A DNA stretch of 41,570 nt from Thermodesulfovibrionia bacterium. GTDB lineage: Bacteria; Nitrospirota; Thermodesulfovibrionia; UBA6902; BMS3Bbin08. The notes below the pieces were generated by a model. It was not told where the DNA came from, did not search any database, and worked only from the letters and a program-made list of their open reading frames with translations. Of this stretch, positions 2,053 to 38,621 are shown piece after piece. Where the stretch lies: contig JAUXYI010000040.1 in NCBI GenBank assembly GCA_030694425.1, positions 1 through 41,570 on the forward strand, given 5' to 3'. How positions within the stretch are numbered: position 1 is the first letter of the stretch; each line of letters begins with the position of its first letter. Both the position numbers and the translations under genes were made by a program.

Positions 2053-3325
2053 TAAAAATGAGAAAGTACAGAACAAAAAATGCAGATTCATTATTGTTCT
2101 ACTTTTATTATCTATTATTTATCTGTCGTCTTCGTATGCAACCGCATCAGATACCTCTATTCACGGTTTTTTTCAGGGCAATTATTCTGCTGACCTGGAT
2201 GGCGCAAATCCTGACGGTAGAAATTTCAAATGGGCAGAGGAGAGACTCCAGTTAAAACTTGATGCAAATAAAGAACCATTTCATCTATTTTTTAAAACTG
2301 ATGCCTTTTATGACCATATTGATGAAGAAGCCGAAGTAGAGTTAAGGGAAGGGTATATTGACTTTACATCTTCAGGATGGGATTTAAGAATTGGCAGGCA
2401 GGTTATCACATGGGGACTTGGCGATTTAATTTTTATAAATGACGTATTTCCTAAAGACTATGAGGCATTTTTCTCCGGAAGGCCGATGGAATACCTTAAA
2501 AAGGGCGTTGACAGTGTAAAGATTGGCGTTTATCCTTCTTTTGTTTCCGCAGAATTAATTATTATCCCGTTTTTTGAGCCTAATAGTTATCCTAAGAGTG
2601 AAAGGTTCTGGATGTTTGACCCAATGCCGTCTGTTACAAACCGCAGCGAGCATGAACCTACAAGCAGGATGCGTAATACTGAAATAGCCTTAAGGGCATA
2701 TCGTGATATAGCAGGATTTGATGCCTCAATCTATATATATAAGGGATTTTACAGACAGCCTTCTATGCTTCCGGATAGTATGTCATCAACAACAAAGATT
2801 GACTTTTTTTATCGTAAACTTTCTGTTTATGGAGCGAGTTTGCAGGGCAGGGCGCTAAATGGGGTTTTAAGTCTTGAGGCTGGTTATTATGATTCAAGAG
2901 AGGACAGAAAAGGGGTTGACCCAATGATTCCAAATTCCCACTCAAAATTTCTAATCGGGTATCAGAGACAGATGTGGGAAGACTTTACCATAGGGCTTCA
3001 ATATTATGTTGAATATATGCATGACTATTTAAAGTATGTAATAAATCAGCCAGCAGGATTTCCGAAAGACAAGAGACTGCACGAGCTTACCGCTGTAAGA
3101 CTTACACAATTATTAAGACATCAGACAATGAAACTTTCTTTATTTTCTTTTTATAGTCCGTCTGATGGTGACTATCTGTTAAATCCGGAGGTTAAATACA
3201 ACTTCTCTGATTATGTATGGGCAGCTGCTGGAGCAAATATATTTGGAGGCGGTGAGGTATGGAGTCAGTTTGGTCAGCTAAGAAAAAATGATAATCTATA
3301 TTTACAGTTGAGATATGAGTTTTAG
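2042..3325 (+). CDS. Putative outer-membrane beta-barrel protein (DUF1302/porin-like)
   Basis: A 427-residue protein starting with a long signal peptide: a basic N-region (residues 1-15), a hydrophobic core near 16-31 and a probable cut after SYATA. The remainder alternates polar and aromatic residues as in a transmembrane beta-barrel and ends LYLQLRYEF, an aromatic C-terminal residue typical of BAM substrates. Conserved-looking features include RIGRQVITWGLGDLIF and DVFPKDYEAFF, which resemble the DUF1302/alginate-export-like barrels that accompany LolA-like proteins and RND exporters. That neighbourhood match (the LolA-like gene at 10-798) supports a role in export across the outer membrane. 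Family assignment is tentative. Confidence 0.65.
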   Translation: MIINKNEKVQNKKCRFIIVLLLLSIIYLSSSYATASDTSIHGFFQGNYSADLDGANPDGRNFKWAEERLQLKLDANKEPFHLFFKTDAFYDHIDEEAEVELREGYIDFTSSGWDLRIGRQVITWGLGDLIFINDVFPKDYEAFFSGRPMEYLKKGVDSVKIGVYPSFVSAELIIIPFFEPNSYPKSERFWMFDPMPSVTNRSEHEPTSRMRNTEIALRAYRDIAGFDASIYIYKGFYRQPSMLPDSMSSTTKIDFFYRKLSVYGASLQGRALNGVLSLEAGYYDSREDRKGVDPMIPNSHSKFLIGYQRQMWEDFTIGLQYYVEYMHDYLKYVINQPAGFPKDKRLHELTAVRLTQLLRHQTMKLSLFSFYSPSDGDYLLNPEVKYNFSDYVWAAAGANIFGGGEVWSQFGQLRKNDNLYLQLRYEF

Positions 3326-3447
3326 CTTAAATACAAATAAATTGTTAATAGAGTATAAATATTAAAAACTAATTGGTCAATGCAAATGGAATAACAAAAG
3401 TATTTCATCAAGAATTATCCGCTATCTGGGTTGAAAAATCTCCTAAT

Positions 3448-10692: not shown

Positions 10693-10854
10693 TAAAACAT
10701 GCAAACCTTATCTTCTCAGACAAAGGGGTGATAAGTGACATATTTTTTCAAAAAGAGGGTTTTTAACTATTCAGCCAGAATGAAAATATCCGCACCAAGT
10801 GCTACTATCATCCCATATTCTGGAGCAAAATGGCACTCGGTGCTATTGTGAAGT

Positions 10855-10873
10855 AGTTAGCCGTTCATTACAG
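10855..10873 (+). other. GTTAGCCG recombination-core-like site, array 1
   Basis: AGTTAGCCGTTCATTACAG here matches AGTTAGCCGCTCATTGCAG at 35169-35187 with two differences, and attC-f continues GTTAGTTGTTCATTGCGG. GTTA is the cleavage-side box of integron sites. To the left, GCACCAAGTGC and GCACTCGGTGC can pair (10 of 11), but no matching TAAC box is at the expected spacing. It may be an attI-like or decayed site. Confidence 0.4.
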
Positions 10874-10962
10874 GCAGGGAGAAAGGATACTTATAAGAGA
10901 AAAACAACCGTCCCATTAAATTCAAGTTTGCTATACTGTAATAGATTATAATCGGTAATCTA

Positions 10963-11400: not shown

Positions 11401-11775
11401 ATGAAAAGAGTATTTATTTCATTCGCTATCGAGGATGAATTCGCAAGAAATAATTTAGTCCATCAGGCAAAGCAAGAACATACGCCTTTTGAATTTGTTG
11501 ACATGTCTGTTAAGGAACCTTGGTCAGCATCGTGGAAAACTAAATGTAGGGAGAGAATAAAAGGGTGTGATGGAGTTATTGCTTTTATAAGCAGGAATAC
11601 ACCCGGAGCTGAGGGAGCATGCTGGGAAATTAAATGTGCTATTGAAGAGGGCGTTCCCATTAAAGGATTCTGGGTACATGCAGATGATCCATGTTGTAAA
11701 CCAGTTGAACTTGGTTACAAACCCGTGGTTTACTGGACATGGGAAAACATTAAAAACTTCATAAATTCGTTATGA
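11401..11775 (+). CDS. TIR-like domain protein (DUF1863/ThsB-like)
   Basis: A 124-residue single-domain protein. KRVFISFAIEDEFARNNLV is the first strand and helix of the TIR-like DUF1863 fold, CRERIKGCDGVIAFISRNT the central strand, and GACWEIKCAIEEG carries the predicted catalytic Glu76. This family includes ThsB, the phage sensor of Thoeris, which makes a cyclic ADP-ribose-type signal from NAD. No ThsA effector is nearby; a RipA-like membrane protein follows after 9 bp and a second TIR protein lies beyond. The Shine-Dalgarno GAGGAGGTAAT is strong. An anti-phage role is inferred. Confidence 0.8.
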   Translation: MKRVFISFAIEDEFARNNLVHQAKQEHTPFEFVDMSVKEPWSASWKTKCRERIKGCDGVIAFISRNTPGAEGACWEIKCAIEEGVPIKGFWVHADDPCCKPVELGYKPVVYWTWENIKNFINSL

Positions 11776-11784
11776 ATTGCCGAT

Positions 11785-12285
11785 ATGAGCAGCCAATCTG
11801 AAATTATTGCTCGCACCTTACTTGGGGTATCTGAAACTGACTATGGTAACTGTTATCGTGAGCACCTTTTAACACAATACTTAAAATATCTTGATATGGC
11901 AGATAAGATAAGTGACAGGAGGTCTGCCTCAAATACTTTCTTTCTTACGGTAAATACAGCCTTAATATCAGCTATCGGAATTGCCAATTTAGTGTCTCAA
12001 ATGAAATCACCCTTCTTTTTTGCAATAGTTGGGTTTGCTGCTATTCTTTTGTGTTACTCTTGGTATCGTTTAATTCGTTCTTATAAAGATCTAAATACGG
12101 CTAAATTCAAAGTAATTCACGAACTCGAAAAACATTTGCCGATCCGTCTTTTTGATGCAGAGTGGGAGAGTGTCGGGAGAGGAAAGAATAAAAAACTTTA
12201 CTTACCCTTTACTCACATTGAAATATATGTGCCTTGGATATTTATATTGCTTTATAGTTCTTTGATTCTGTATGTAGTTATTTAG
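11785..12285 (+). CDS. RipA-like small membrane protein, probable partner of the TIR protein
   Basis: A 166-residue protein. The soluble N-terminus (HLLTQYLKYLDMADKISDRRSASNTFFLT, about 28-56) resembles the RipA family of oligomeric membrane proteins. Two hydrophobic segments follow (about 54-73 and 77-95), then a charged cytoplasmic stretch with KHLPIRLFDAEW and a last membrane helix (150-166). The gene starts 9 bp after the TIR gene, so the two form one unit. By analogy with other TIR and SLATT-type systems it could be a membrane effector opened by a TIR-made nucleotide; this is inference from arrangement only. Confidence 0.6.
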   Translation: MSSQSEIIARTLLGVSETDYGNCYREHLLTQYLKYLDMADKISDRRSASNTFFLTVNTALISAIGIANLVSQMKSPFFFAIVGFAAILLCYSWYRLIRSYKDLNTAKFKVIHELEKHLPIRLFDAEWESVGRGKNKKLYLPFTHIEIYVPWIFILLYSSLILYVVI

Positions 12286-12443: not shown

Positions 12444-13583
12444 ATGGCAGAAACTTGTTTTAAGGCATTTCTGAGTTGTAGTTTTGCCGAGGAAGACAAA
12501 GAAGTAATAGATTTCTTTAAAAAAATGATCGCAGCATTTGATATACAACCTTTAGTCTATGACTACCAAGAAATAGGGAAAATATCAAATAAGGTTAAGG
12601 CCAATATAATCGAGAGTGATTGTTTAATAGCAATAGCGACAAAGAGAAATAAAATTGAGGGGTCAAATTACTGGTCATGTTCTGACTGGATTCAACACGA
12701 AATTGCACTTGCCCATGCATATAGCAAACCCATTGCAATCTTTTTTGAAGAAGGAGTTAAAATTGAAGGTCTTATCTCAATGGAAGAAAGACGAGAAAGA
12801 TTCAACAGACAAAATCTTATCAGCAACATAGACAAAATCACAGCATTTTTGTATAAGCTGAGAAACTACTTAGAATCTACAGATCAAACTTTGCAAGTAC
12901 CACTTTTATTAAGGCATTATATCCATGCAAAAGATCAAATGCTTTCTAAAGAACTTCTTGCTGAAAGAACTGAGATTTTAATGGAATCCTTAATTGATGG
13001 GTTAGAAGCAACGCATCATTCTATAGAACTCGAAGAAACAACTCCTGGACTATCAGTAAAACCCTTAGAATTTGACTTTAAATGTTTAGAGAAACCTTCA
13101 GGTACAAAGGTAGAGCCATTTATAGCCTTAAATACAGAAGCAAAGTTTTTCTGGAAGATTTTATTTAATCCTCCTCTCAAAAAAGGTGAAAGGGTAAAAT
13201 ATACTTTCAAGGAAGTTCGTCCTAATTATCGCCCCTACTCTTACGAGGAATTGATGAAAAGAATCGAGCAAGGAACTTATGAGTATAAGGAACCAAAGTG
13301 TGAGGCTTGCGAATGGACTATTGTCTATCCAACATATGAATTACGTCATGAATTTGAATTTCCAGAGAACTATGAAATTGAGAATTTCTATCCAGATGTG
13401 GCTATCGGGGAAGCAAAACTTAAAGCAGAAAATGAAGTAAAACGAATCGAAGAAGGAAATATGTTTACCGCCGAAAAGATATTTGATAAATGGGTATTAA
13501 AACTTCATGTACCAAAACCTTTCCAAAATTATACGTATTGTACATATTATTTGCCATTAAAGACACAACGAGAAACAAAATAA
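12444..13583 (+). CDS. TIR-domain protein with uncharacterised C-terminal domain
   Basis: A 379-residue protein. Residues 5-105 look like a TIR/nucleotide-binding Rossmann domain: FKAFLSCSFAEEDKEVIDFF, then VKANIIESDCLIAIATKR and DWIQHEIALAHAYSKPIAIFF, where Glu86 sits at the NADase position. A helical linker (about 130-200) follows. The C-terminal 170 residues are beta-rich, with a CEAC pair and many aromatic residues; I do not recognise this domain. It follows the TIR/RipA pair in the same orientation with no attC-like site between them, so all may belong to one cassette. The ribosome binding site is GAGAGGAGGACA. Confidence 0.65.
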   Translation: MAETCFKAFLSCSFAEEDKEVIDFFKKMIAAFDIQPLVYDYQEIGKISNKVKANIIESDCLIAIATKRNKIEGSNYWSCSDWIQHEIALAHAYSKPIAIFFEEGVKIEGLISMEERRERFNRQNLISNIDKITAFLYKLRNYLESTDQTLQVPLLLRHYIHAKDQMLSKELLAERTEILMESLIDGLEATHHSIELEETTPGLSVKPLEFDFKCLEKPSGTKVEPFIALNTEAKFFWKILFNPPLKKGERVKYTFKEVRPNYRPYSYEELMKRIEQGTYEYKEPKCEACEWTIVYPTYELRHEFEFPENYEIENFYPDVAIGEAKLKAENEVKRIEEGNMFTAEKIFDKWVLKLHVPKPFQNYTYCTYYLPLKTQRETK

Positions 13584-13679
13584 GCTCAAAACCCTAACTT
13601 CATATAATTGACCTATGAAATGGATGTAAGATAAAAAGAAAAATGAGACGGTTGTTCTATTATAATGCCTGCAACGGAC

Positions 13680-13747
13680 GGCTAACACGTTGCAAAAGAC
13701 TGACGTCAAAACCCATTGGGGCTTCTTTTGCAACGGGAACGTTAGCG
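13680..13747 (+). other. attC-like site b
   Basis: GGCTAAC (13680-13686), one base, CGTTGCAAAAG (13688-13698), a 26-nt loop, CTTTTGCAACG (13725-13735, perfect complement), GGAAC, then GTTAGCG (13741-13747). Total 68 nt. Outer boxes pair at 6 of 7 positions. It lies between two plus-strand genes, as an attC site would, and shares its exact geometry with sites d and g. Confidence 0.7.
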
Positions 13748-13780: not shown

Positions 13781-14665
13781 ATGACAGATAACTATTTTAG
13801 TGAAAGAGAACTTGGTCCGCCGCCACGAAATAAGGAAAAAATAGATCAGGGGTTTTGGGGTGGGTTCAGGACTCTTATTCAGGCTCGTATAAATGATGGT
13901 TCATTGGCAGAACGCTTTCCGATTAATTGTTTTGATGCTCCTATTCCTATTGGATGTGATGAATCAGCTATCAAACTGGCATTTGAAGCTGAGTTTCCCT
14001 TAATTGAATGGCCCTTTTATTCAAATGACCTGCCAGATTCCTTATTAGTGTTAGATGCAATTGAATTTTTCAATCGATATATTTCAAAACCAATCAGGAA
14101 AGAATATCACTCATTCGGGAAACATCATCACTTTATTTCATTCGATAAGGATGAAGGTCAACGGGAATATTTAAAAGATGTCAACCGACTTTTTAGACGA
14201 AACAGCCTTGCATTCGAGCTTAAAGAAAATGGTCGTGTCATACGATTAGAACCAATTGTTCTCCGTGAGACATTGGCCAGCGCAGTTTTTCATACAGAAG
14301 ATGGAGAACTCAACCGTCTTCTTGAACTTGCTCGTGAAAAGTTCCGCGATCCCGATGTAAACATTCGAAGGGAAGCAGTCGAAAAACTCTGGGATGCTTG
14401 GGAACGTTTAAAAACTCTTGAACCAGGGTCGGACAAGAAGAAACAGGTTGAAGTAATGCTCACAAAAGCCATTCCAGAATCAGAGTTTCGTGAGCGTATT
14501 AATGATGAAGCTATCGCATTGACTAAAATCGGAAATGATTTTGCGATTCGCCACACTGAGATAAACAAAGTGATAATCTCAGAAAGCGAGTTTTTAGATT
14601 ATCTTTTCCACCGTCTTTTTGCATTGATTCTACTATTGCTCCGCCGAACTGGACGAGTGCGGTAG
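13781..14665 (+). CDS. Possible AbiJ-like abortive-infection protein with C-terminal HEPN-like region
   Basis: A 294-residue soluble protein. The N-terminal half (FSERELGPPPRNKEKIDQGF, then a helical section to about 110) is followed by RREAVEKLWDAWERLKTLEP and a C-terminal ALTKIGNDFAIRHTEINK segment, which resembles the HEPN-type end of AbiJ-family proteins, with Arg-His in the RNase-motif position. If correct, it is a predicted ribonuclease acting in phage defence. It is the first gene after attC-like site b. No recognised attC lies before the protease gene 52 bp on, so the two may share a cassette. Assignment rests on the C-terminal motif only. Confidence 0.5.
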   Translation: MTDNYFSERELGPPPRNKEKIDQGFWGGFRTLIQARINDGSLAERFPINCFDAPIPIGCDESAIKLAFEAEFPLIEWPFYSNDLPDSLLVLDAIEFFNRYISKPIRKEYHSFGKHHHFISFDKDEGQREYLKDVNRLFRRNSLAFELKENGRVIRLEPIVLRETLASAVFHTEDGELNRLLELAREKFRDPDVNIRREAVEKLWDAWERLKTLEPGSDKKKQVEVMLTKAIPESEFRERINDEAIALTKIGNDFAIRHTEINKVIISESEFLDYLFHRLFALILLLLRRTGRVR

Positions 14666-14717
14666 CCTTATTCACTGTTTTTGAGAGAATATATGCAACA
14701 AATTGAATGGGGGCATT

Positions 14718-15728
14718 ATGAAGAAAATTAAAGCAAATCATTTATTGATTTTTTTAAGCATGATTACTATTTTATTTTCAATCCCTTTGCTGAGCCATGC
14801 AAAGACTGCAAGAGAAATAGCACAGAACAGCTTTCCATCAGTCGTAATGCTTTTAATGGAGGATTCAAATGGTCAACCGCTTTCTTTAGGGAGCGGTTTT
14901 TTTGTTAGAGAAGGGATAGTTGCTACCAATCTTCATGTAATAGAAGGTGCGGCAAAAGGTTATGTAAAAATAGTTGCTCAGAAGTTAAAATATGACATTG
15001 CAGGTATTCTTGGAATTGACAAGGAACATGACCTTGTACTTTTGTCTATAAAAGGTGCTAAAGCGCCATCCCTATCTCTTGGCGATGGCCAACAAGTTGC
15101 TGTTGGTGATGAAGTTTATGCGGTTGGTAATCCGCAAGGGCTTGAAGGCACGTTTTCCCAAGGCATCATTAGCAGTATTCGTCAAGTCGCTTCTGAAACT
15201 ATTTTACAAATAACAACACCTATTTCCCCGGGGAGTAGTGGCGGTCCTGTACTAAATGTTCAAGGTACAGTAATTGGCGTCGCTGTAGCTACATTCAAGG
15301 GCGGTCAAAATCTAAACTTCGCCATTCCTATTTCTTATTTGTCATCGCTGCTGCAGAATATAAAACCTCTCATGGCTCTATCTGGGAAGACACGATCCAA
15401 GCAGGACAAATCAATTCTCGATGGTTTAGGGGAGCGGAGTGTTGGAGGTGTTGTTGGAGGACAACTAACATGGACGTATTCAGTTTTGCAAAGTGGTGAT
15501 TATGCTTTTTCCTTTAGAAATCAACTTCGTGAACCAGTGAAAGACATCTATTGTCTTGTCGTATTTTATGACCGTGCAGACAACCCTATAGATGTTAATG
15601 TTGTACGCTATAGTGGTGTTATTCCAGCTGGACTTGCAAAGAGAGTAACGAGTCGGGTCGATGAAAGCGTTCAGAAATTAACGAGTAGAGTTGAATTTAG
15701 AATTTTAGATTTCAAGATAATAGAATGA
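14718..15728 (+). CDS. Trypsin-like (S1C/HtrA-type) serine protease, exported
   Basis: A 336-residue protein. Residues 1-28 are a signal peptide (LLIFLSMITILFSIPLLSHA). The catalytic triad is visible: His73 in IVATNLHVIEGA, Asp105 in KEHDLVLLS, Ser174 in SPGSSGGPVLN. No PDZ domain follows; instead there is a beta-rich C-terminal domain of about 100 residues (SGDYAFSFRNQLREPVKDIY). It acts in the periplasm or at the envelope. The ATG at 14718 is chosen because GGGGG stands 6 bp upstream; an in-frame TTG at 14703 has no such site. Trypsin-like proteases occur with bacterial defence genes, but this one is secreted. Confidence 0.85.
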   Translation: MKKIKANHLLIFLSMITILFSIPLLSHAKTAREIAQNSFPSVVMLLMEDSNGQPLSLGSGFFVREGIVATNLHVIEGAAKGYVKIVAQKLKYDIAGILGIDKEHDLVLLSIKGAKAPSLSLGDGQQVAVGDEVYAVGNPQGLEGTFSQGIISSIRQVASETILQITTPISPGSSGGPVLNVQGTVIGVAVATFKGGQNLNFAIPISYLSSLLQNIKPLMALSGKTRSKQDKSILDGLGERSVGGVVGGQLTWTYSVLQSGDYAFSFRNQLREPVKDIYCLVVFYDRADNPIDVNVVRYSGVIPAGLAKRVTSRVDESVQKLTSRVEFRILDFKIIE

Positions 15729-15737
15729 TGCAAAATC

Positions 15738-15756
15738 GCCTAACATGGTACAAAAG
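15738..15756 (+). other. Left half of an attC-like site (site c, truncated)
   Basis: GCCTAAC (15738-15744), one base and TGGTACAAAAG (15746-15756) match the left arms of the complete sites. The expected CTTTTGTACCA and GTTAGGC are absent; the sequence runs instead into the 110-bp repeat at 15773. It directly follows the protease gene. Confidence 0.6.
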
Positions 15757-15772
15757 ATTTTATCTAAACCCT

Positions 15773-15882
15773 TCCAGAGTGCAAAGAGGGTCAAGTCTTT
15801 CTTCTTGCAGTTTTGCCCGCAACGGCAGAGAACAGCATGCTTGTCTACGACTCGTAGAGAGGTTTACACCCAAAGGCTACGC
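15773..15882 (+). repeat. 110-bp cassette-border repeat, copy 1
   Basis: 102 of 110 bases match 17314-17423 without gaps. It starts TCCAGAGTGCAAAGAGGGTC, contains the palindrome TCTACGACTCGTAGA and an AGAGAACAGCATGCTTG segment resembling an attC left arm (AGATAACAGAGTGCTTG in site d), and ends CCCAAAGGCTACGC like an attC loop. The right arm is missing. A reading frame through it is spurious. Confidence 0.75.
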
Positions 15883-15974
15883 TCTTCTCAAATCATAAAA
15901 TTAAAACAACTATACTTGGAGCCATTGTGATATAATGAATTTATAATTATCCTTATGTGAAAGGAGGGTAAGAA

Positions 15975-16187
15975 ATGCATACGCAAATGAAGTACGAAGA
16001 TGAGATTATCAAGGAGTTGCAGAATATACCTGATGAACAGATTCTTAATCTTCTCAACATGATACGCATCTTCAAAAAAAGTATCAATATGCAGCGGGAA
16101 GCTGATTTCTATCTCAAAAAAGAATTTGATGAGTGGGATATTTTAAGCGACGAAGCACTAAGTAATTTTGAGGCTAAATTATCGTGA
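15975..16187 (+). CDS. Antitoxin partner of the MazF/PemK toxin
   Basis: A 70-residue acidic protein, unrecognised as a named family but similar in form to DUF2281-type antitoxins: an N-terminal helix (MKYEDEIIKELQNIPDEQIL) followed by a C-terminal tail rich in Glu and Asp (LKKEFDEWDILSDEALSNFE) suited to binding a toxin. Its stop overlaps the toxin start by 4 bp. GGAGGGTAAGAA precedes the ATG. The short promoter region upstream carries TATAATGAATTTATAATTAT. Antitoxin identity is inferred from position, size and overlap. Confidence 0.7.
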   Translation: MHTQMKYEDEIIKELQNIPDEQILNLLNMIRIFKKSINMQREADFYLKKEFDEWDILSDEALSNFEAKLS

Positions 16188-16522
16188 CTTTCGGAGATAT
16201 TTATCTCGTTGAAATTCCTGCTTCTGGCGGACACGAACAGCAAGGTGTCAGACCTGCAATTGTAGTCCAGACTGCTGAAAACATAGATAGAGTCCCTACC
16301 GTCCTTATTGTTCCTTTCACCACACAAATAAAGGCTGCGAGTTTCCCATTTACTTTTGTTGTAGAACCAGATTCTACCACTAATCTGACTTCAACATCTA
16401 TCGCTTTAGTGTTTCAACTAAGAGCTATTGATAAAAAGAGGATGAAGAACAGGCTCGGGAGTCTAAGCACAGGTGATATGCAAGTTTTGAAACAAAAATT
16501 GAAAGATATTTTAAACATATAA
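16184..16522 (+). CDS. MazF/PemK-family mRNA interferase toxin
   Basis: A 112-residue toxin of the PemK/MazF SH3-like fold. TFGDIYLVEIP (about 2-12) and GVRPAIVVQTAENI carry the core strands and the conserved Arg; TVLIVPFTTQIKA and the C-terminal FQLRAIDKKRMKNRLGSLS are typical. It cleaves mRNA at short sequence-specific sites. Translation starts at a GTG within the antitoxin stop (GTGA), giving coupling. The pair forms a cassette closed by attC-like site d. Toxin-antitoxin pairs are known to stabilise cassette arrays. Confidence 0.9.
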   Translation: MTFGDIYLVEIPASGGHEQQGVRPAIVVQTAENIDRVPTVLIVPFTTQIKAASFPFTFVVEPDSTTNLTSTSIALVFQLRAIDKKRMKNRLGSLSTGDMQVLKQKLKDILNI

Positions 16523-16554: not shown

Positions 16555-16622
16555 AGATAACAGAGTGCTTGAGATTAAACATCCAAAGGCTTTGCCCTTC
16601 TTAAGCACTCGAACCGTTAACT
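16555..16622 (+). other. attC-like site d
   Basis: AGATAAC (16555-16561), one base, GAGTGCTTGAG (16563-16573), a 26-nt loop, CTTAAGCACTC (16600-16610; ten pairs and one G-T), GAACC, then GTTAACT (16616-16622). Total 68 nt. The preceding CTGCCCGCAGCGACAG resembles the lead-in of other sites. Confidence 0.7.
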
Positions 16623-16701
16623 GAAATCCCACAAAAAAGGAGATAAAAATATGGAATCACAACAAATAGCAGAGCCATTTTGTCAGAGCTGTGGAATGCC
16701 G

Positions 16702-17127
16702 ATGAAAAAAACATTAAATTTTATAATCTTTGGTTTTATGTTTCTTATTTATCTACCAGTTGCCTGTAATGATATTTCTAAAATTGATCCGAAAAAAATC
16801 GAAAAAACACATCGAACATTAAAGTTTATAGAAGCCAAAATATTAACTGGGGTTTCCTATATAGATTTTAAAAAATCGATGCAGGATTTTTTAACCGAAA
16901 TTCTTATTACGAAAGATTTAATGCGAACAAACAAAGAGAAAGAAATATTACAACAATATATCGATATTTATGATATATATAACGATAGTCTTAAATTATG
17001 GGCAGATAAAGCAGAAGATAATAATTTACTTTCATTTGTCGCGTTTTACAAGGATATTGTAAAAAATACAATATTGAGACTTTCCCATTCAGTGAATACA
17101 AAGAAAGAAGGAGTATGGCTCTTTTAA
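16702..17127 (+). CDS. Small putative lipoprotein fused behind a zinc-ribbon gene start
   Basis: Reading from ATG 16702 gives 141 residues: MKKTLNFIIFGFMFLIYLP followed by VACND, a lipoprotein-like signal peptide with Cys23 as the possible lipidation site, then a helical charged domain. The same frame is open from ATG 16651, which has a better Shine-Dalgarno (AAAAAGGAG), and that adds 17 residues (MESQQIAEPFCQSCGMP) identical to the zinc-ribbon fragment at 18948. So the 5' end of a zinc-ribbon gene is joined in frame to this gene. I do not recognise the mature domain. The next gene overlaps its end by 13 bp. Confidence 0.55.
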   Translation: MKKTLNFIIFGFMFLIYLPVACNDISKIDPKKIEKTHRTLKFIEAKILTGVSYIDFKKSMQDFLTEILITKDLMRTNKEKEILQQYIDIYDIYNDSLKLWADKAEDNNLLSFVAFYKDIVKNTILRLSHSVNTKKEGVWLF

Positions 17128-17313: not shown

Positions 17314-17423
17314 TCCAAAGTGCAAAGAGGGTCAAGTCTTTCTTCTTGCAGTTTTGCCCACAACGACAGATAACAGAGTGCTTGTCTACGACTCGTAGAG
17401 AGGTAAACACCCAAAGGCTACGC
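17314..17423 (+). repeat. 110-bp cassette-border repeat, copy 2
   Basis: Near-identical to 15773-15882 (8 differences). This copy has the better attC left arm, AGATAACAGAGTGCTTG, equal to that of site d, then TCTACGACTCGTAGA and CCCAAAGGCTACGC. It then breaks off into unrelated sequence (CCTGCAAATTT), so the right arm is gone. It separates two gene pairs. Confidence 0.75.
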
Positions 17424-17493
17424 CCTGCAAATTTTTGTATGTCATATATGTGCAGGTATGGTAAAATTAAGTAACTAATGGAAAGGAGGAATT

Positions 17494-17715
17494 ATGACAA
17501 CAGCATCTATAAAAAATAACCTTGCAGCTCAACTTGATAAACTTCCTTATAATTTACAACTTCGTGTGCTTGATTTTGTAAAGTCTCTAATACCCACAGG
17601 AGTCAAAGGTAAAAGCCTTCTGCGGTTTGAAGGAGCCATTCCTGCTGATGATTTAGAACTAATGTCTAAAGCTATAGAAGAAAACTGTGAAAAAGTAGAC
17701 ACCAGTGAATGGTAA
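17494..17715 (+). CDS. DUF2281-like antitoxin of a VapC pair
   Basis: A 73-residue acidic protein: LAAQLDKLPYNLQLRVLDFV forms the helical pair typical of DUF2281 antitoxins, and the tail LELMSKAIEENCEKVDTSEW would thread onto a PIN toxin. AAAGGAGGAATT precedes the ATG. It overlaps the VapC start by 11 bp. Since the toxin is interrupted, the antitoxin may no longer be needed and may be drifting, though it looks intact. Confidence 0.75.
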   Translation: MTTASIKNNLAAQLDKLPYNLQLRVLDFVKSLIPTGVKGKSLLRFEGAIPADDLELMSKAIEENCEKVDTSEW

Positions 17716-18094
17716 ATATCTTCTCGATACGAATATAATTATTTCCATTTTTGCTAAAGACCCTCAGATTCACAACCGTTTAGCAAACGCTGAAGAAGTG
17801 TTTATTCCATGTATTGCCATTGGAGAGTTGTGTTTTGGAGCATACAAGTCCCTCAAAATTGAAGAAAATCTTGCACGTATAGATGAATTTGCTATAAATA
17901 ATACTGTGCTTGCTTGTGATACAGACACAGCCAAAAAATATGGACATATAAAGAACCAATTGAAAGAAAAAGGGTAACCAATCCCTGAGAATGATGTATG
18001 GATTGCTGCAATCGCCCAACAATACGACATTACATTAATCTCAAAGGATATTCATTTTGCTGTAATTGAAAATTTAAAAATTGAAACATGGTAA
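17705..18094 (+). pseudogene. VapC PIN-domain toxin broken by an in-frame stop
   Basis: The frame begins GTG at 17705 (MNGKYLLDTNIIISIF) with the PIN acids Asp8 and Glu41 (AIGELCFG). Codon 91 is TAA (17975-17977). In the same frame the next codons read PIPENDVWIAAIAQQYDITL and then ISKDIHF, the rest of a normal VapC with Asp97 and Asp115, ending at a natural stop at 18092-18094. So one nonsense change splits a 129-residue toxin and removes the last catalytic acids. It is probably inactive unless the stop is read through. Confidence 0.85.
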
Positions 18095-18114: not shown

Positions 18115-18181
18115 AGATAACACAGGCTAAAAGATTGACATTCAAATGCTACCGCACTTCTTTTAGCCTTGAACGTTAGGC
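18115..18181 (+). other. attC-like site e
   Basis: AGATAAC (18115-18121), one base, CAGGCTAAAAG (18123-18133), a 26-nt loop, CTTTTAGCCT (perfect 10-bp complement of AGGCTAAAAG), TGAAC, then GTTAGGC (18175-18181), the textbook R' box. Total 67 nt. It is preceded by CCTGCCCGCAACGGC and follows the broken VapC gene. Confidence 0.75.
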
Positions 18182-18282: not shown

Positions 18283-18942
18283 ATGAAGAAGAGCATATGG
18301 ATACCAACAAGACTAATTTCCATCTTTATCTTCTTCGCATTGGTCATGTTTGGAGGGACGCTCTGGACTCTCAGTGGAGGAGACCCCAGAGGAGAGTGGG
18401 TTCTCGTAACGTATGTAGTGGATGGCGATACTATTTCTGTGGGGCGTGGATGGAGGTCTACCACGGTGCGTCTTATTGGTATTGATACTCCTGAAACGGT
18501 GCATCCAGAAAAACCAGTCGAGTTTTTTGGCCCTGAGTCCTCAGAGTTTACCAAAAGGCAACTGGATGGGAAAAAGGTGCATCTTGAATTTGAGTCTTCT
18601 ACCCAGTATGATGACTATGACCGTTTGCTTGCTTATGTATTCCTTTTGGATGGTACCCTTTTCAATGCAGAACTTATCAAGCAAGGCTATGCTCGTGTTA
18701 TCGCCCCCTCTCCATTCCATCGCTATAAAGAGTTCCGCCTTTATGAACGCGAAGCGAGGGTTGCTGGGTTAGGCCTTTGGGCTGAAAAAGATATTTGTAG
18801 GGAGATCATTGGTAACAGGAGGTCGAAAATATATCGTCTTCCTGGTGATGCCGGCTGTAGTCGGATTAAGGAAGAAAACCGAATCTACTTTGATACGGAA
18901 GACGAGGCAATAAAGACAGGATATAGACGAGCGAAGCGGTAA
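18283..18942 (+). CDS. Thermonuclease-family (staphylococcal nuclease-like) protein, membrane-anchored or secreted
   Basis: A 219-residue protein. Residues 11-30 are a signal anchor (LISIFIFFALVMFGGTLWTL). The SNase domain (about 38-165) has VVDGDTISV, VRLIGIDTPETVHP (Arg63, Asp68, Glu71) and YDRLLAYVF (Arg114), the full catalytic set, so it should cut DNA or RNA outside the cytoplasmic membrane. The C-terminal segment IIGNRRSKIYRLPGDAGCSRIKEENRIYF resembles the Ada-type metal-binding tail on many such nucleases. It follows attC-like site e. An extracytoplasmic nuclease could act on incoming DNA; that role is inferred. Confidence 0.88.
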   Translation: MKKSIWIPTRLISIFIFFALVMFGGTLWTLSGGDPRGEWVLVTYVVDGDTISVGRGWRSTTVRLIGIDTPETVHPEKPVEFFGPESSEFTKRQLDGKKVHLEFESSTQYDDYDRLLAYVFLLDGTLFNAELIKQGYARVIAPSPFHRYKEFRLYEREARVAGLGLWAEKDICREIIGNRRSKIYRLPGDAGCSRIKEENRIYFDTEDEAIKTGYRRAKR

Positions 18943-18947
18943 GGATT

Positions 18948-19067
18948 ATGGAATCACAACAAATAGCAGAGCCATTTTGTCAAAGCTGTGGAATGCCGAT
19001 GAAACAGCCCGAAGATTTTGGGATAAACGCTGATGGAACCAGAAGCAAGGAAAATGATTGGCAATAG
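18948..19067 (+). pseudogene. Truncated putative zinc-ribbon protein gene
   Basis: Thirty-nine codons beginning MESQQIAEPFCQSCGMPMKQ, then PEDFGINADGTRSKE and an unrelated ending NDWQ before TAG. The FCQSCGMPM...NADG start is typical of a family of small putative zinc-ribbon proteins, normally about 80-100 residues with further cysteines (EYCTYCF-type) right where this copy breaks off. The first 57 bases recur at 16651-16707 with one mismatch. It starts 5 bp after the nuclease gene stop. Confidence 0.7.
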
Positions 19068-34939: not shown

Positions 34940-35098
34940 GGGGTAGTAACCATCAATAAAGAAGCCTCTAATATAATAACAGTTTCCTTCCCATATAATG
35001 CTCAGCTTGTTGAAAAGGTCAGAACCATTGATGGCCGCAAATGGCATAAGGGTAAAAAATACGGGAGCTTTCCAAATACTAATGGTGATGACCCATAG
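34940..35098 (+). pseudogene. Fragment resembling the N-terminus of a tyrosine recombinase
   Basis: The open frame ends at TAG 35096-35098. It reads NIITVSFPYNAQLVEKVRTI then DGRKWHKGKKYGSFPNTNGD. The FPYN-LVEKV-TI-GR-WH-K-W/G-SFPN pattern resembles the HARP-like N-terminal extension found on some bacterial XerCD-like integrases. No start codon is obvious and none of the catalytic domain is present. It lies between the array 2 leader and the GTTAGCCG core, the place where integrase sequence would be expected in an integron. Family recognition is from memory and tentative. The rest of the 34712-35217 gap shows no further gene. Confidence 0.45.
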
Positions 35099-35168
35099 GG
35101 AGGTATATCCGACATAGTCGTCTATCCCTTTAAAACTGGAAAAAAGGCGACATTGTCGTCTGTGAACG

Positions 35169-35187
35169 AGTTAGCCGCTCATTGCAG
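35169..35187 (+). other. GTTAGCCG recombination-core-like site, array 2
   Basis: AGTTAGCCGCTCATTGCAG, the counterpart of 10855-10873. Upstream lie CGACATAGTCGTC and CGACATTGTCGTC, near-identical quasi-palindromes. The first cassette gene starts 31 bp downstream. Candidate attI-like or attC right end. Confidence 0.4.
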
Positions 35188-35217: not shown

Positions 35218-35952
35218 ATGGACAGTCAAAAAAATTTTTTAGAAAATATTAAATCAGTATTACCAGTTATTTCTGTTTTATTTCTAACATATGGATATGC
35301 CTATCTAAATATCTATTACAGCAATTTTGGGATCAAGGTTCAAAATTTCTTTTCAATTGAAGATTATTTGAGAGCTAATATAGACAATATTTATAAGTTA
35401 GTTTTTCCTTTTTTACTTTCATTTTTATGGGGTTTTTTCTCAAAAATGATAGATAGCAAACAAGTAACTCAAAGAAGAAAGATATTTGAAGATATTATTA
35501 CTTATATTCTCTTAGCAACATTAATTATCGCCGGTATAGTAAGTACGTATATAGTTAAATCTCCTGCAAGATACTGGCTTTATTGGTTAGCTGCGATGGG
35601 CATCTGGGTGGAAGTCGTTAGCAAAGTTACTTCAAAGATAAGGGATAAATTTGAAAAATTCAACATATGGGGTTATCTTTCAGTTTTTATTCTATTGCCT
35701 CTTACCTTTATCAATCTTTATTTTAATGCCAAGCTTGACGCTGCTAATATTATAGAGTTAAAAAAGCCAAGCAATATAGAAGTTTCTTTTGATGATAATT
35801 TTTTAAAATTAAATAAAATTGACACAAAACATTTATTTTTAATCGGCTCTAATTCAAACTATATGTTTTTTTATGATGCTAATAGTAGCCTTACATATAT
35901 TGCGCCTTTAAACATGGTAAAAGGCATTACGGTTAAAATGAATATATCATAA
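35218..35952 (+). CDS. Hypothetical membrane protein (array 2)
   Basis: A 244-residue protein with five predicted membrane segments (about 13-33, 60-78, 91-110, 116-131, 149-167) and an 80-residue C-terminal soluble tail (IDTKHLFLIGSNSNYMFFYD) that looks beta-rich. I recognise no family. It is the first gene after the array 2 core site and is closed by attC-like site f 40 bp after the stop. No Shine-Dalgarno of note precedes the ATG. Low G+C (AT-rich codons) matches cassette genes in array 1. Confidence 0.7.
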   Translation: MDSQKNFLENIKSVLPVISVLFLTYGYAYLNIYYSNFGIKVQNFFSIEDYLRANIDNIYKLVFPFLLSFLWGFFSKMIDSKQVTQRRKIFEDIITYILLATLIIAGIVSTYIVKSPARYWLYWLAAMGIWVEVVSKVTSKIRDKFEKFNIWGYLSVFILLPLTFINLYFNAKLDAANIIELKKPSNIEVSFDDNFLKLNKIDTKHLFLIGSNSNYMFFYDANSSLTYIAPLNMVKGITVKMNIS

Positions 35953-35991: not shown

Positions 35992-36066
35992 GGCTAACAG
36001 CAGGCTAAAAGAAAAAAAACAATAGGCAAATGCTATCGCACTTCTTTTAGCCTGTAACCGTTAGTT
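35992..36066 (+). other. attC-like site f
   Basis: GGCTAAC (35992-35998), AG, CAGGCTAAAAG (36001-36011), a 32-nt loop, CTTTTAGCCTG (36044-36054, perfect complement), TAACC, GTTAGTT (36060-36066). Total 75 nt. The stem nearly equals that of site e, 18 kb away in array 1. Confidence 0.75.
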
Positions 36067-36130: not shown

Positions 36131-37156
36131 ATGACAAAAGTCGAGCGTATATTAAATAGGATTAAAAACCACCCCGTTATAAGCGTTTTTATTGTGATAG
36201 GAATTGTAATCATTTCTCTATCAACGTTTAAAGATTCTCTCCATGGTCTCTTTGGTCGATCTGACGGGAAGACACAAACCATCCAACAAAAAATGGAAAA
36301 ATCTCCAGGTTCAATTCAGGCTGGTCGTGATGTAAACATAGAAGTTCATATGGATAAAAGTTCTTCTGTTTCTCGTCCTGTTGCTCGATTTCCTTTTGAT
36401 TTACAGATACGTAATGCCAAAGAACGCATCAGATACCTCTCTCAAGAATATTTAAAAACAGATACAATGAGCCTCATTGAGGTAATCGGAGCGTATGGAG
36501 ACAATGTTCTTGATAGCCCCCAACTTTATGATTGGAATAAAGTTATGAATGAGCTTGAAAAACAAGGTTATATTAAGATTATTCTACGAACAGAAAACAA
36601 CATTGAGTTTAAAGTTTTGGGAAGGAGATTTACAGAACCAGCCCTTCAAGCCCCATTTGATATGACTCTATTTTTCTACCCTTCAGGATGGATGGGAGAT
36701 GGAGAATATGGCACAAGATACATCCAACTTAATACAGCGTTTAAAGAATGTAATCGCACTGGTGATACTGATGGTCTTTGCATCAAAATAAGCTACCAGC
36801 CAAATAAAAAGGGTTGGGCAGGCATTTATTGGCAATACCCGGATAGTAATTGGGGTGACCAGCGCGGGAGAAGAATTATGGGAGATAGGAGAATTATCTT
36901 TTGGGCAAAGGGAGAAAGAGGTGGTGAAGTAGTTGAATTTAAGGCGGGAGGAATTAATGCCCCCAACAAGCCTTATCGAGACAGTTTTGAAGTTTTCAGA
37001 GGGCGTATTGTTCTTACAGGAGAATGGAGAAGATATGAGATTTCTCTATCTGGACAAGATCTCTCCAATGTCATAGGAGCGTTCGCGTGGGTAGCGTCAA
37101 GAGATACAAATCCTGGGGGCGTAACCTTTTATTTGGATGATATTCGATATGAATAG
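36131..37156 (+). CDS. Membrane-anchored protein with C-terminal jelly-roll-like domain (array 2)
   Basis: A 341-residue protein. One N-terminal transmembrane helix (about 17-34, VISVFIVIGIVIISLSTF), then a linker with GSIQAGRDVNIEV, a motif seen in many prokaryotic signalling and effector proteins. A helical middle region (about 90-165) includes LIEVIGAYGDNVL and YDWNKVMNELEKQGYIKI. The C-terminal part has GWAGIYWQYPDSNWGD and GGVTFYLDDIRYE, typical of carbohydrate-binding beta-sandwich domains. Function unknown. It lies between attC-like sites f and g as a single-gene cassette. Confidence 0.7.
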   Translation: MTKVERILNRIKNHPVISVFIVIGIVIISLSTFKDSLHGLFGRSDGKTQTIQQKMEKSPGSIQAGRDVNIEVHMDKSSSVSRPVARFPFDLQIRNAKERIRYLSQEYLKTDTMSLIEVIGAYGDNVLDSPQLYDWNKVMNELEKQGYIKIILRTENNIEFKVLGRRFTEPALQAPFDMTLFFYPSGWMGDGEYGTRYIQLNTAFKECNRTGDTDGLCIKISYQPNKKGWAGIYWQYPDSNWGDQRGRRIMGDRRIIFWAKGERGGEVVEFKAGGINAPNKPYRDSFEVFRGRIVLTGEWRRYEISLSGQDLSNVIGAFAWVASRDTNPGGVTFYLDDIRYE

Positions 37157-37172
37157 AATGGCAGCCAACTTC

Positions 37173-37240
37173 ATCTAACATGGCGGAAAAGACTGTCGCG
37201 CAAACCGTAGGAGGCTTCTTTTCCGCCAATAACGTTATGC
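37173..37240 (+). other. attC-like site g
   Basis: ATCTAAC (37173-37179), one base, TGGCGGAAAAG (37181-37191), a 26-nt loop, CTTTTCCGCCA (37218-37228, perfect complement), ATAAC, GTTATGC (37234-37240). Total 68 nt, the same geometry as b and d. It starts 17 bp after the stop codon of the preceding gene. Confidence 0.75.
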
Positions 37241-38257: not shown

Positions 38258-38349
38258 GTATAACAGCGCAAAGATAGGCGCAAAGATAGGGACAGCGACC
38301 ATTAATAAAGAAAGATTTACCCGTACCGGCAGATAACAGAGTGCTTGAG
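38258..38349 (+). other. Partial attC-like sequences (site j)
   Basis: GTATAACAGCGCAAAGATAG (38258-38277) could be one left half; its CGCAAAGATAGG unit is repeated in tandem. AGATAACAGAGTGCTTGAG (38331-38349) equals the left arm of site d over 19 bases, but the expected CTTAAGCACTC and GTTA box are missing. Read as truncated sites before the HicB-like gene. Confidence 0.5.
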
Positions 38350-38408
38350 GTTAAGCTTTGCTATTCTAAAAATTCTTCTAAAAGACTTTGAAGGAGAGGT
38401 GAACTTTA

Positions 38409-38621
38409 ATGTATAAGTATGAAATTATTATTTACTGGGATAATCAAGACCGTATTTATATTGCAGATGTTCCTGAACTACCAGGTTGCTCTGCTCACGG
38501 TAATACTTATGACAAGGCGTTAAATAATGCAAAAAAAGCCATTCAATTATGGATTGATACAGCAAAAGAATTTGGAGACCCAATACCTGAACCAAAAGGT
38601 CAGCGTTTAATTTACGCATAA
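38409..38621 (+). CDS. HicB-like antitoxin (orphan)
   Basis: A 70-residue protein of the short HicB-like type: YEIIIYWDNQDRIYIADVPE, LPGCSAHGNTYDKALNNAKK and AIQLWIDTAKEFGDPIPEPK give the complete partial-RNase-H fold. GAAGGAGAGG precedes the ATG. No HicA toxin gene is seen on either side, so it is an orphan antitoxin or a solitary cassette. It is the last gene of array 2; no complete attC follows. Confidence 0.88.
   Translation: MYKYEIIIYWDNQDRIYIADVPELPGCSAHGNTYDKALNNAKKAIQLWIDTAKEFGDPIPEPKGQRLIYA

Follow-up and report, generated by a model that had tools for sequence, protein, structure and literature searches.

Hairpin sites between gene cassettes in a Thermodesulfovibrionia genome point to a probable integron-like system with a recombinase outside the IntI family

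The window, that is, the whole stretch of DNA analyzed (41,570 nt), is contig C95 in full of a 2.4-Mb bin of a Thermodesulfovibrionia bacterium (GCA_030694425.1, JAUXYI010000040.1). It contains five hairpin sites (b, d, e, f, and g), four broken site copies and two attI-like junctions, together with genes for TIR, 8xMP, AbiJ_NTD4, peptidase, PemK toxin, PIN, and nuclease proteins. These features form two decayed arrays, in which attI-like regions are present without a usable gene for the tyrosine recombinase termed IntX here, plus one IntX fragment. The features are as follows:

10770-10862, +: attI-like region 1, decayed; junction G^TTA, G at 10856; resembles the region 3' of the IntX stop codon elsewhere
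10856-10876, +: leader of first cassette, GTTAGCCGTTCATTACAGGCA; forms inverted repeat I4 (86% complementarity) with the trailer ahead of site b (13666-13686)
11401-11775, +: cassette gene, ThsB-type TIR domain protein (PF08937, 1.8e-8)
11785-12285, +: cassette gene, 8xMP octameric membrane protein (PF24838, 4.5e-41)
12444-13583, +: cassette gene, no family
13680-13747, +: hairpin recombination site b, 68 nt, spacers 1/5 (fold; model R1, 77.5 bits as a training member)
13781-14665, +: cassette gene, AbiJ_NTD4/candidate defence protein PDC-S32 (PF18863, 2.5e-13; PADLOC, 1.1e-47)
14703-15728, +: cassette gene, trypsin-like peptidase (PF13365, 1.7e-27)
15738-15772, +: broken hairpin site, 5' half only (GCCTAACATGGTACAAAAG), from sequence
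15827-15885, +: broken hairpin site inside a 113-nt repeat (D1, 92%; second copy 17314-17426)
16184-16522, +: cassette gene, PemK/MazF toxin (PF02452, 1.4e-25); small partner ORF at 15975-16187
16555-16622, +: hairpin recombination site d, 68 nt (R1, 74 bits)
17368-17426, +: broken hairpin site (repeats D1, D2)
17705-17977, +: cassette gene, PIN-domain protein shortened by a stop (PF01850, 1.7e-9)
18115-18181, +: hairpin recombination site e, 67 nt (R1, 74 bits)
18283-18942, +: cassette gene, staphylococcal-nuclease-like protein (PF00565, 4.4e-26)
34940-35098, +: relic of the IntX N-terminal domain (..ITVSFPYNAQLVEKVRTIDGRKWHKGKKYGSFPNTNGDDP*), from translation; blastn 72-77% to IntX 5' regions of other loci
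35085-35176, +: attI-like region 2; junction G^TTA, G at 35170
35218-35952, +: cassette gene, weak DUF5345 match
35992-36066, +: hairpin recombination site f, 75 nt (R1, 53.8 bits)
36131-37156, +: cassette gene, no family
37173-37240, +: hairpin recombination site g, 68 nt (R1, 73.5 bits)
38331-38395, +: broken hairpin site, 5' half only, from sequence
38406-38621, +: HicB-like antitoxin gene (PF15919, 4.7e-11)

The IntX gene upstream of attI-like region 1 has been deleted, and the blastn match of this region to contig C87 of the same genome (G000) stops at 10860, while the relic that directly precedes attI-like region 2 has lost its catalytic domain. Within the first array, positions 16650-16722 and 18947-19019 are 89% identical and hold the starts of a small zinc-ribbon ORF (MESQQIAEPFCQSCGMPMK), truncated in both copies.

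Site b reads GGCTAAC A CGTTGCAAAAG [26 nt] CTTTTGCAACG GGAAC GTTAGCG and exactly follows the layout 7+1+11+26+11+5+7=68 nt that the original prediction had put forward, and the same holds for sites d and g, while e, with one base less, and f, with its longer loop, deviate in the manner described there. The stem ends in AAAAG/CTTTT at the loop in four of the five sites, the exception being d (TTGAG/CTTAA), and CAAA inside the loop and CTT at its end are common to all five. In general, a site consists of TAAC, one A, an 11-bp stem (12 bp if a nearly invariant terminal A-T is counted), the loop, the stem partner, five bases and GTTA, and it folds, like the sites of integrons, into R and L stems with an unpaired central spacer, here of 1 nt on one side and 5 nt on the other. 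A fixed outer stem, proposed from complementarity outside the boxes (TGCCTGCAACGG/GTTCATTGCAGGCA), was rejected, being true of a subset only.

The notion of a conserved structure with changing sequence is borne out, as standard pairs make up 86.7% in the five sites (72.5% when shuffled) and 9 of 18 pairs are changed on both sides. In an alignment of 74 sites from relatives and other phyla, which was fitted to a covariance model and is thereby biased towards structure, 89.0% of pairs are standard (71.1% when shuffled), compensated cells number 232 against 72 +/- 6.5, and every one of the 12 inner-stem pairs has changed on both sides, so that the compensatory changes on which the original prediction had staked itself are abundant. 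As single-stranded DNA, all five window sites fold better than dinucleotide shuffles on either strand (z -2.0 to -5.5), and the suggested test of bottom-strand folding found the bottom strand to be the more stable one in 63 of the 74 sites. Intergenic hairpins that fold well could also be terminators of transcription or RNA elements that recur 3' of short operons, but these have long loops and no T run, an Rfam scan of the window gave no match at curated thresholds, the near-invariant AAC/GTT boxes pair with the neighboring site and the orientation is locked to IntX, which makes such a role a negligible prospect.

The departure of the outer boxes from RYYYAAC/GTTRRRY, already pointed out in the original prediction, is real and arises because the sites are composite, the two boxes of one site belonging to neighboring cassettes. 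When the leader box of a cassette is compared with its own distal box, 27 of 34 pairings are perfect, with a mean of 3.68 of 4 variable positions, whereas the two boxes inside one site reach 2.01 of 4 and random boxes 1.64, and the pairing within own cassettes was attained in 0 of 5000 permutations. Such complementarity is expected of circular cassettes with a self-complementary site that are joined between G and TT, and the sites thus resemble composite attC with exchange between G and TT of R'. In stretches shared between genomes, 22 of 120 alignment ends, a few of them matches of the attI region, fall within 12 nt of G^TTA, about ten times the 1.8% expected. One MqsRA cassette, with a match that starts exactly at G^TTA, lies behind attI at two loci (L148, L016) and behind a hairpin site at two others (L064, L142); by genome, it follows attI in G000:C9 and L148, and G047 and a Nitrospinae bin have it after a hairpin site. 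These data also bear on the idea that IntX and the hairpins constitute a transposon-like or phase-variation element, with the sites as its ends and no capture of cassettes. Several IntX/attI copies exist per genome (C32, C9, C61, C44, C87, and two in the window) and some plasmid relatives of IntX are annotated as TnpF, as such an element might predict. The units between sites, however, hold differing cargo and no recombinase of their own, and a given cassette follows attI or a hairpin site depending on the genome; with boxes composite between neighbors, a result that largely refutes this reading, it is very improbable.

A covariance model, R1, was built from the five window sites after 7 loop bases had been removed from the training sequence of site f. 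The search that had been suggested with such a model returned 16 genomic matches with E<0.04, which include nine further full sites outside the window (E<=2e-4), as well as a partial site (31.9 bits) and a match of 25.6 bits beside a recombinase fragment. Matches lying mostly away from cassette-type genes would have spoken against a cassette function, but those examined (C9, C32, C61) have toxin-antitoxin and other genes of cassette type as neighbors and lie close to IntX or to relics of attI-like regions.

No match to the IntI profile TIGR02249 exceeds the curated cut-off in this genome. Instead, a 403-residue IntX open frame is found on C32 and IntX fragments on C9, C61, and C44, and, judged by IntX, the closest named relatives are groundwater bins of Nitrospirae. 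The C32 frame (L015) may be dead, because no ATG start is evident; at this locus, an IS3-type transposase (2145-3339) separates the IntX stop codon from the attI-like region. IntX combines Phage_int_SAM_4 and Phage_integrase domains and retains the catalytic residues, and with 249 bits it passes the 220-bit cut-off of XerA/NF040815, 'site-specific tyrosine recombinase/integron integrase'. TIGR02249, in contrast, matches it only on either side of profile positions 172-235, and in an alignment that included 20 full IntI from the same class, the columns unique to IntI form blocks of 31 and 10 at the IntI-specific insertion, both of which are missing from the IntX rows; IntX thus lacks the additional domain that characterizes the catalytic domain of IntI. 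In a maximum-likelihood tree, the IntI clade (100/100) excludes IntX, as does the clade of the housekeeping recombinases XerC/XerD (100/91), whose loci are without the hairpins; IntX forms a group of its own (93/89) with members from many phyla and four nested insertion-less relatives, the branching order of the three being unreadable because of long branches. An AlphaFold model of IntX from a 27-sequence alignment (pLDDT 84, pTM 0.55) comes nearest to Vibrio cholerae IntI (2a3v) and archaeal XerA, and displays a separate N-terminal alpha-beta domain for which there is no Pfam match. Recombinases of Acinetobacter plasmids are 51% identical to the catalytic part of IntX, with a match that leaves out the N-terminal domain, and one of them is annotated as TnpF.

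The region right after the IntX stop codon is conserved from Nitrospirota via archaea to Bacteroidota and displays an attI-like order, namely two hairpins with similar arms on either side of a CCC..GGG hairpin, followed by some ten bases and GTTA. The twin hairpins were read by eye in many loci, and an automatic hairpin test gave only a moderate excess, with an arm of 5 or more in 59% of the attI-like regions compared to 27% when shuffled. The first cassette appears to start at the GTT end of this region, which would place an attI beside the integrase gene, as in integrons. At four loci (L099, L105, L151, L158), a leader hairpin lies just 3' of the junction, e.g., AAAATGTCGCTTCGCTCCATTTT.

Among 61 relatives, R1 sites occur in 10 of 11 genomes with IntX (at 55% identity or more, fragments counted) but in only 3 of the 50 others (Fisher p=3.3e-8); the link is weaker in 246 genomes of the phylum, where sites are found in 6 of 8 with IntX compared to 13 of 238 (p=2.4e-6), and both tests ignore kinship among the genomes, all of the Nitrospirota evidence coming from metagenome bins. 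In 13 of the 19 Nitrospirota genomes that have strong sites, no close IntX was detected; cassettes hence occur independently of it as well, and other enzymes, IntI included, might move them. A corresponding alternative is that the sites are a canonical attC class moved by canonical IntI, absent here as in integrase-less attC clusters (CALIN), with IntX as a bystander. IntI tolerates diverse attC, the TAAC/GTTA boxes, composite boxes and cassettes are exactly integron-like, IntI exceeds the curated cut-off in 28 of the 61 relatives, and three site-bearing genomes (G004, G027, G040) have IntI with only an IntX fragment or none. Yet IntI is unassociated with the sites among the relatives (p=0.37), and across many phyla the sites lie directly behind IntX and not near IntI. 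Moreover, sites that are linked to IntI in the same order (L220, L221, L222, L227) differ, as they are 131-135 nt long, mostly have 5/5 spacers, bear 2-3 extrahelical bases in the R''-L'' arm, are located on the opposite side of a divergent intI and match the textbook attC (PMC2727003, PMC5371416); two cassette systems therefore coexist in this lineage. Taken with its bystander role for IntX, this alternative is unlikely.

The association of the sites with IntX extends well beyond Nitrospirota. At IntX loci from named genomes, 31 of 37 R1 matches are downstream and on the IntX strand. A model-free scan for AAC, an imperfect hairpin and GTT at 80 IntX loci of many phyla yielded 95 downstream sites with the longer spacer 3' and 13 downstream in the opposite sense, as well as 30 sites upstream of IntX in 1.7 times as much DNA. 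When restricted to asymmetric hairpins (spacer difference of 3-5), the scan gave 72 on the strand of IntX and 9 on the opposite one in 240 kb of downstream DNA, and 5 in 400 kb upstream; their density per 100 kb is 30 downstream of IntX compared to 0.84 at XerC/D loci and 0.65 at IntI loci, about 40 times fewer. The commonest spacers of the IntX-linked sites are 1 and 5 nt, 66 of 72 have an A directly 3' of AAC, and 61 of the 72 are free of bulges, which sets them apart from canonical attC, in which two or three bases of the R''-L'' arm are extrahelical (PMC2727003). Sites of Bacteroidota are longer, about 132 nt, and obey the same spacer rule, with seven within 5 kb at the Flavobacterium terrisoli locus. 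For about half of the loci with Bacteroidota IntX relatives, the scan of 6 kb detected no site, and none was detected at the chosen thresholds on Chryseobacterium plasmids, although attI-like regions are present there. Two such plasmids of cultured strains (L236, L237) carry IntX, an attI-like region and a series of genes that mostly point the same way, and a Dehalococcoidia locus (L152) has one site behind IntX and, farther down, three sites of opposite sense, like a second array facing it. As the site class occurs in Nitrospirota, Nitrospinota, Atribacterota, Chloroflexota, Bacillota, Bacteroidota, Micrarchaeota, Altarchaeota, and others, it cannot be called a lineage-specific attC class of an integron integrase, and the recombinase with which it co-occurs is IntX rather than IntI. 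Of the attC reading in the original prediction, cassette recombination hairpins with TAAC/GTTA boxes are therefore retained, while ordinary attC sites of IntI are not.

The five elements are very probably cassette recombination hairpins of an integron-like system, to judge from sequence comparison, with IntX, from outside the IntI family, as the most likely recombinase. The same kind of evidence shows the order of the platform, the 1/5 spacer asymmetry, the compensated stems, the composite boxes and the shared cassettes that break at G^TTA. A complete platform consists of intX, a hairpin-rich attI-like site right after its stop codon and then the cassettes, all on one strand, each cassette having a TTRRRY-like start, one or two genes, often of toxin-antitoxin or defence type, and the end AAC-A-stem-loop-stem-5 nt-G. 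By analogy with integrons, the cassette site would be folded by IntX as a single strand, most likely the bottom one, and the enzyme would bind the stem, cut at G^TT and at this point link the circular cassette with the attI-like site or a further site. The strands would be distinguished by the 4-nt spacer asymmetry rather than by extrahelical bases, and this asymmetry is the clearest strand-distinguishing feature in most sites. The platforms of this genome have decayed, and its two window arrays retain attI while having no usable IntX.

Like canonical integrons (IntI, attI, attC; e.g., class 1 and Vibrio superintegrons), IntX platforms have a tyrosine recombinase, an adjacent attI, codirected cassettes, composite sites with G^TT exchange, and a folded hairpin with an unpaired spacer whose bottom strand folds better. 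In contrast to these, the recombinase has no IntI-specific insertion, forms a separate group and is codirected with the cassettes, 1/5 spacers characterize the sites, most of which are devoid of extrahelical bases, and attI is rich in hairpins. The system would work in an integron-like manner, yet lies outside the IntI family by the IntI domain and the extrahelical bases. Codirected (inverted) integrases are already known from the Treponema type (PMC3607928), which, as compared by description, shares with IntX platforms an integrase transcribed towards attI and cassettes. The IntI of one relative (L228, G047:C56) has an IntX-type N-terminal domain, a hairpin-bearing attI and codirected attC, but differs from IntX in that the IntI insertion is kept and the attC have an extrahelical base, and this locus may connect inverted integrons with IntX platforms. 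Clade-specific attC models have likewise been reported (PMC8352920).

CALIN are attC clusters that lack IntI, and Nitrospira inopinata has two of them (PMC9024848). With five sites in the window and no IntI above the cut-off in the genome, where two or more attC without a nearby IntI suffice, the window arrays would presumably be counted as CALIN by the logic of IntegronFinder, if the sites were detected at all; in contrast to CALIN, they have attI-like sites of their own and a cognate-looking recombinase that searches based on IntI do not count. Integron surveys demand the IntI-specific domain by design (PMC9668308), because of which IntX platforms are invisible or filed as integrase-less arrays. 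Smyshlyaev et al. noted that the insertion is not fully conserved in the 'integron-like' subgroup of tyrosine recombinases, and the accessible part of that work describes proteins only, with no sites, attI or cassettes for insertion-less members (PMC8138268). A literature search, with most subscription journals and all preprints outside its reach, returned neither non-IntI cassette systems, Bacteroidota cassettes or atypical integrons of this kind nor a report of recombinases without the insertion that have sites and an attI of their own.

Gene-cassette machinery of a second kind, apparently undescribed, may thus be widespread, in about a dozen phyla including archaea. On balance, and with some reserve, IntX platforms are seen as a second lineage of cassette capture parallel to the IntI integrons, in at least a dozen bacterial and archaeal phyla, in which the strands are told apart by spacer asymmetry, attI is structured and part of the recorded integrase-less attC clusters is included. 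Cultured carriers of IntX are Flavobacterium limicola, F. terrisoli, and Winogradskyella epiphytica, and IntX is also found on Chryseobacterium plasmids. Should IntX be the enzyme, cassette capture would have a route of its own into Bacteroidota, Bacillota, and several archaeal groups, the surplus and broad distribution of attC clusters without integrase would in part have a testable cause, and the supposed need for the IntI insertion and for extrahelical bases in folded-site recombination could be examined in a natural system that has neither.
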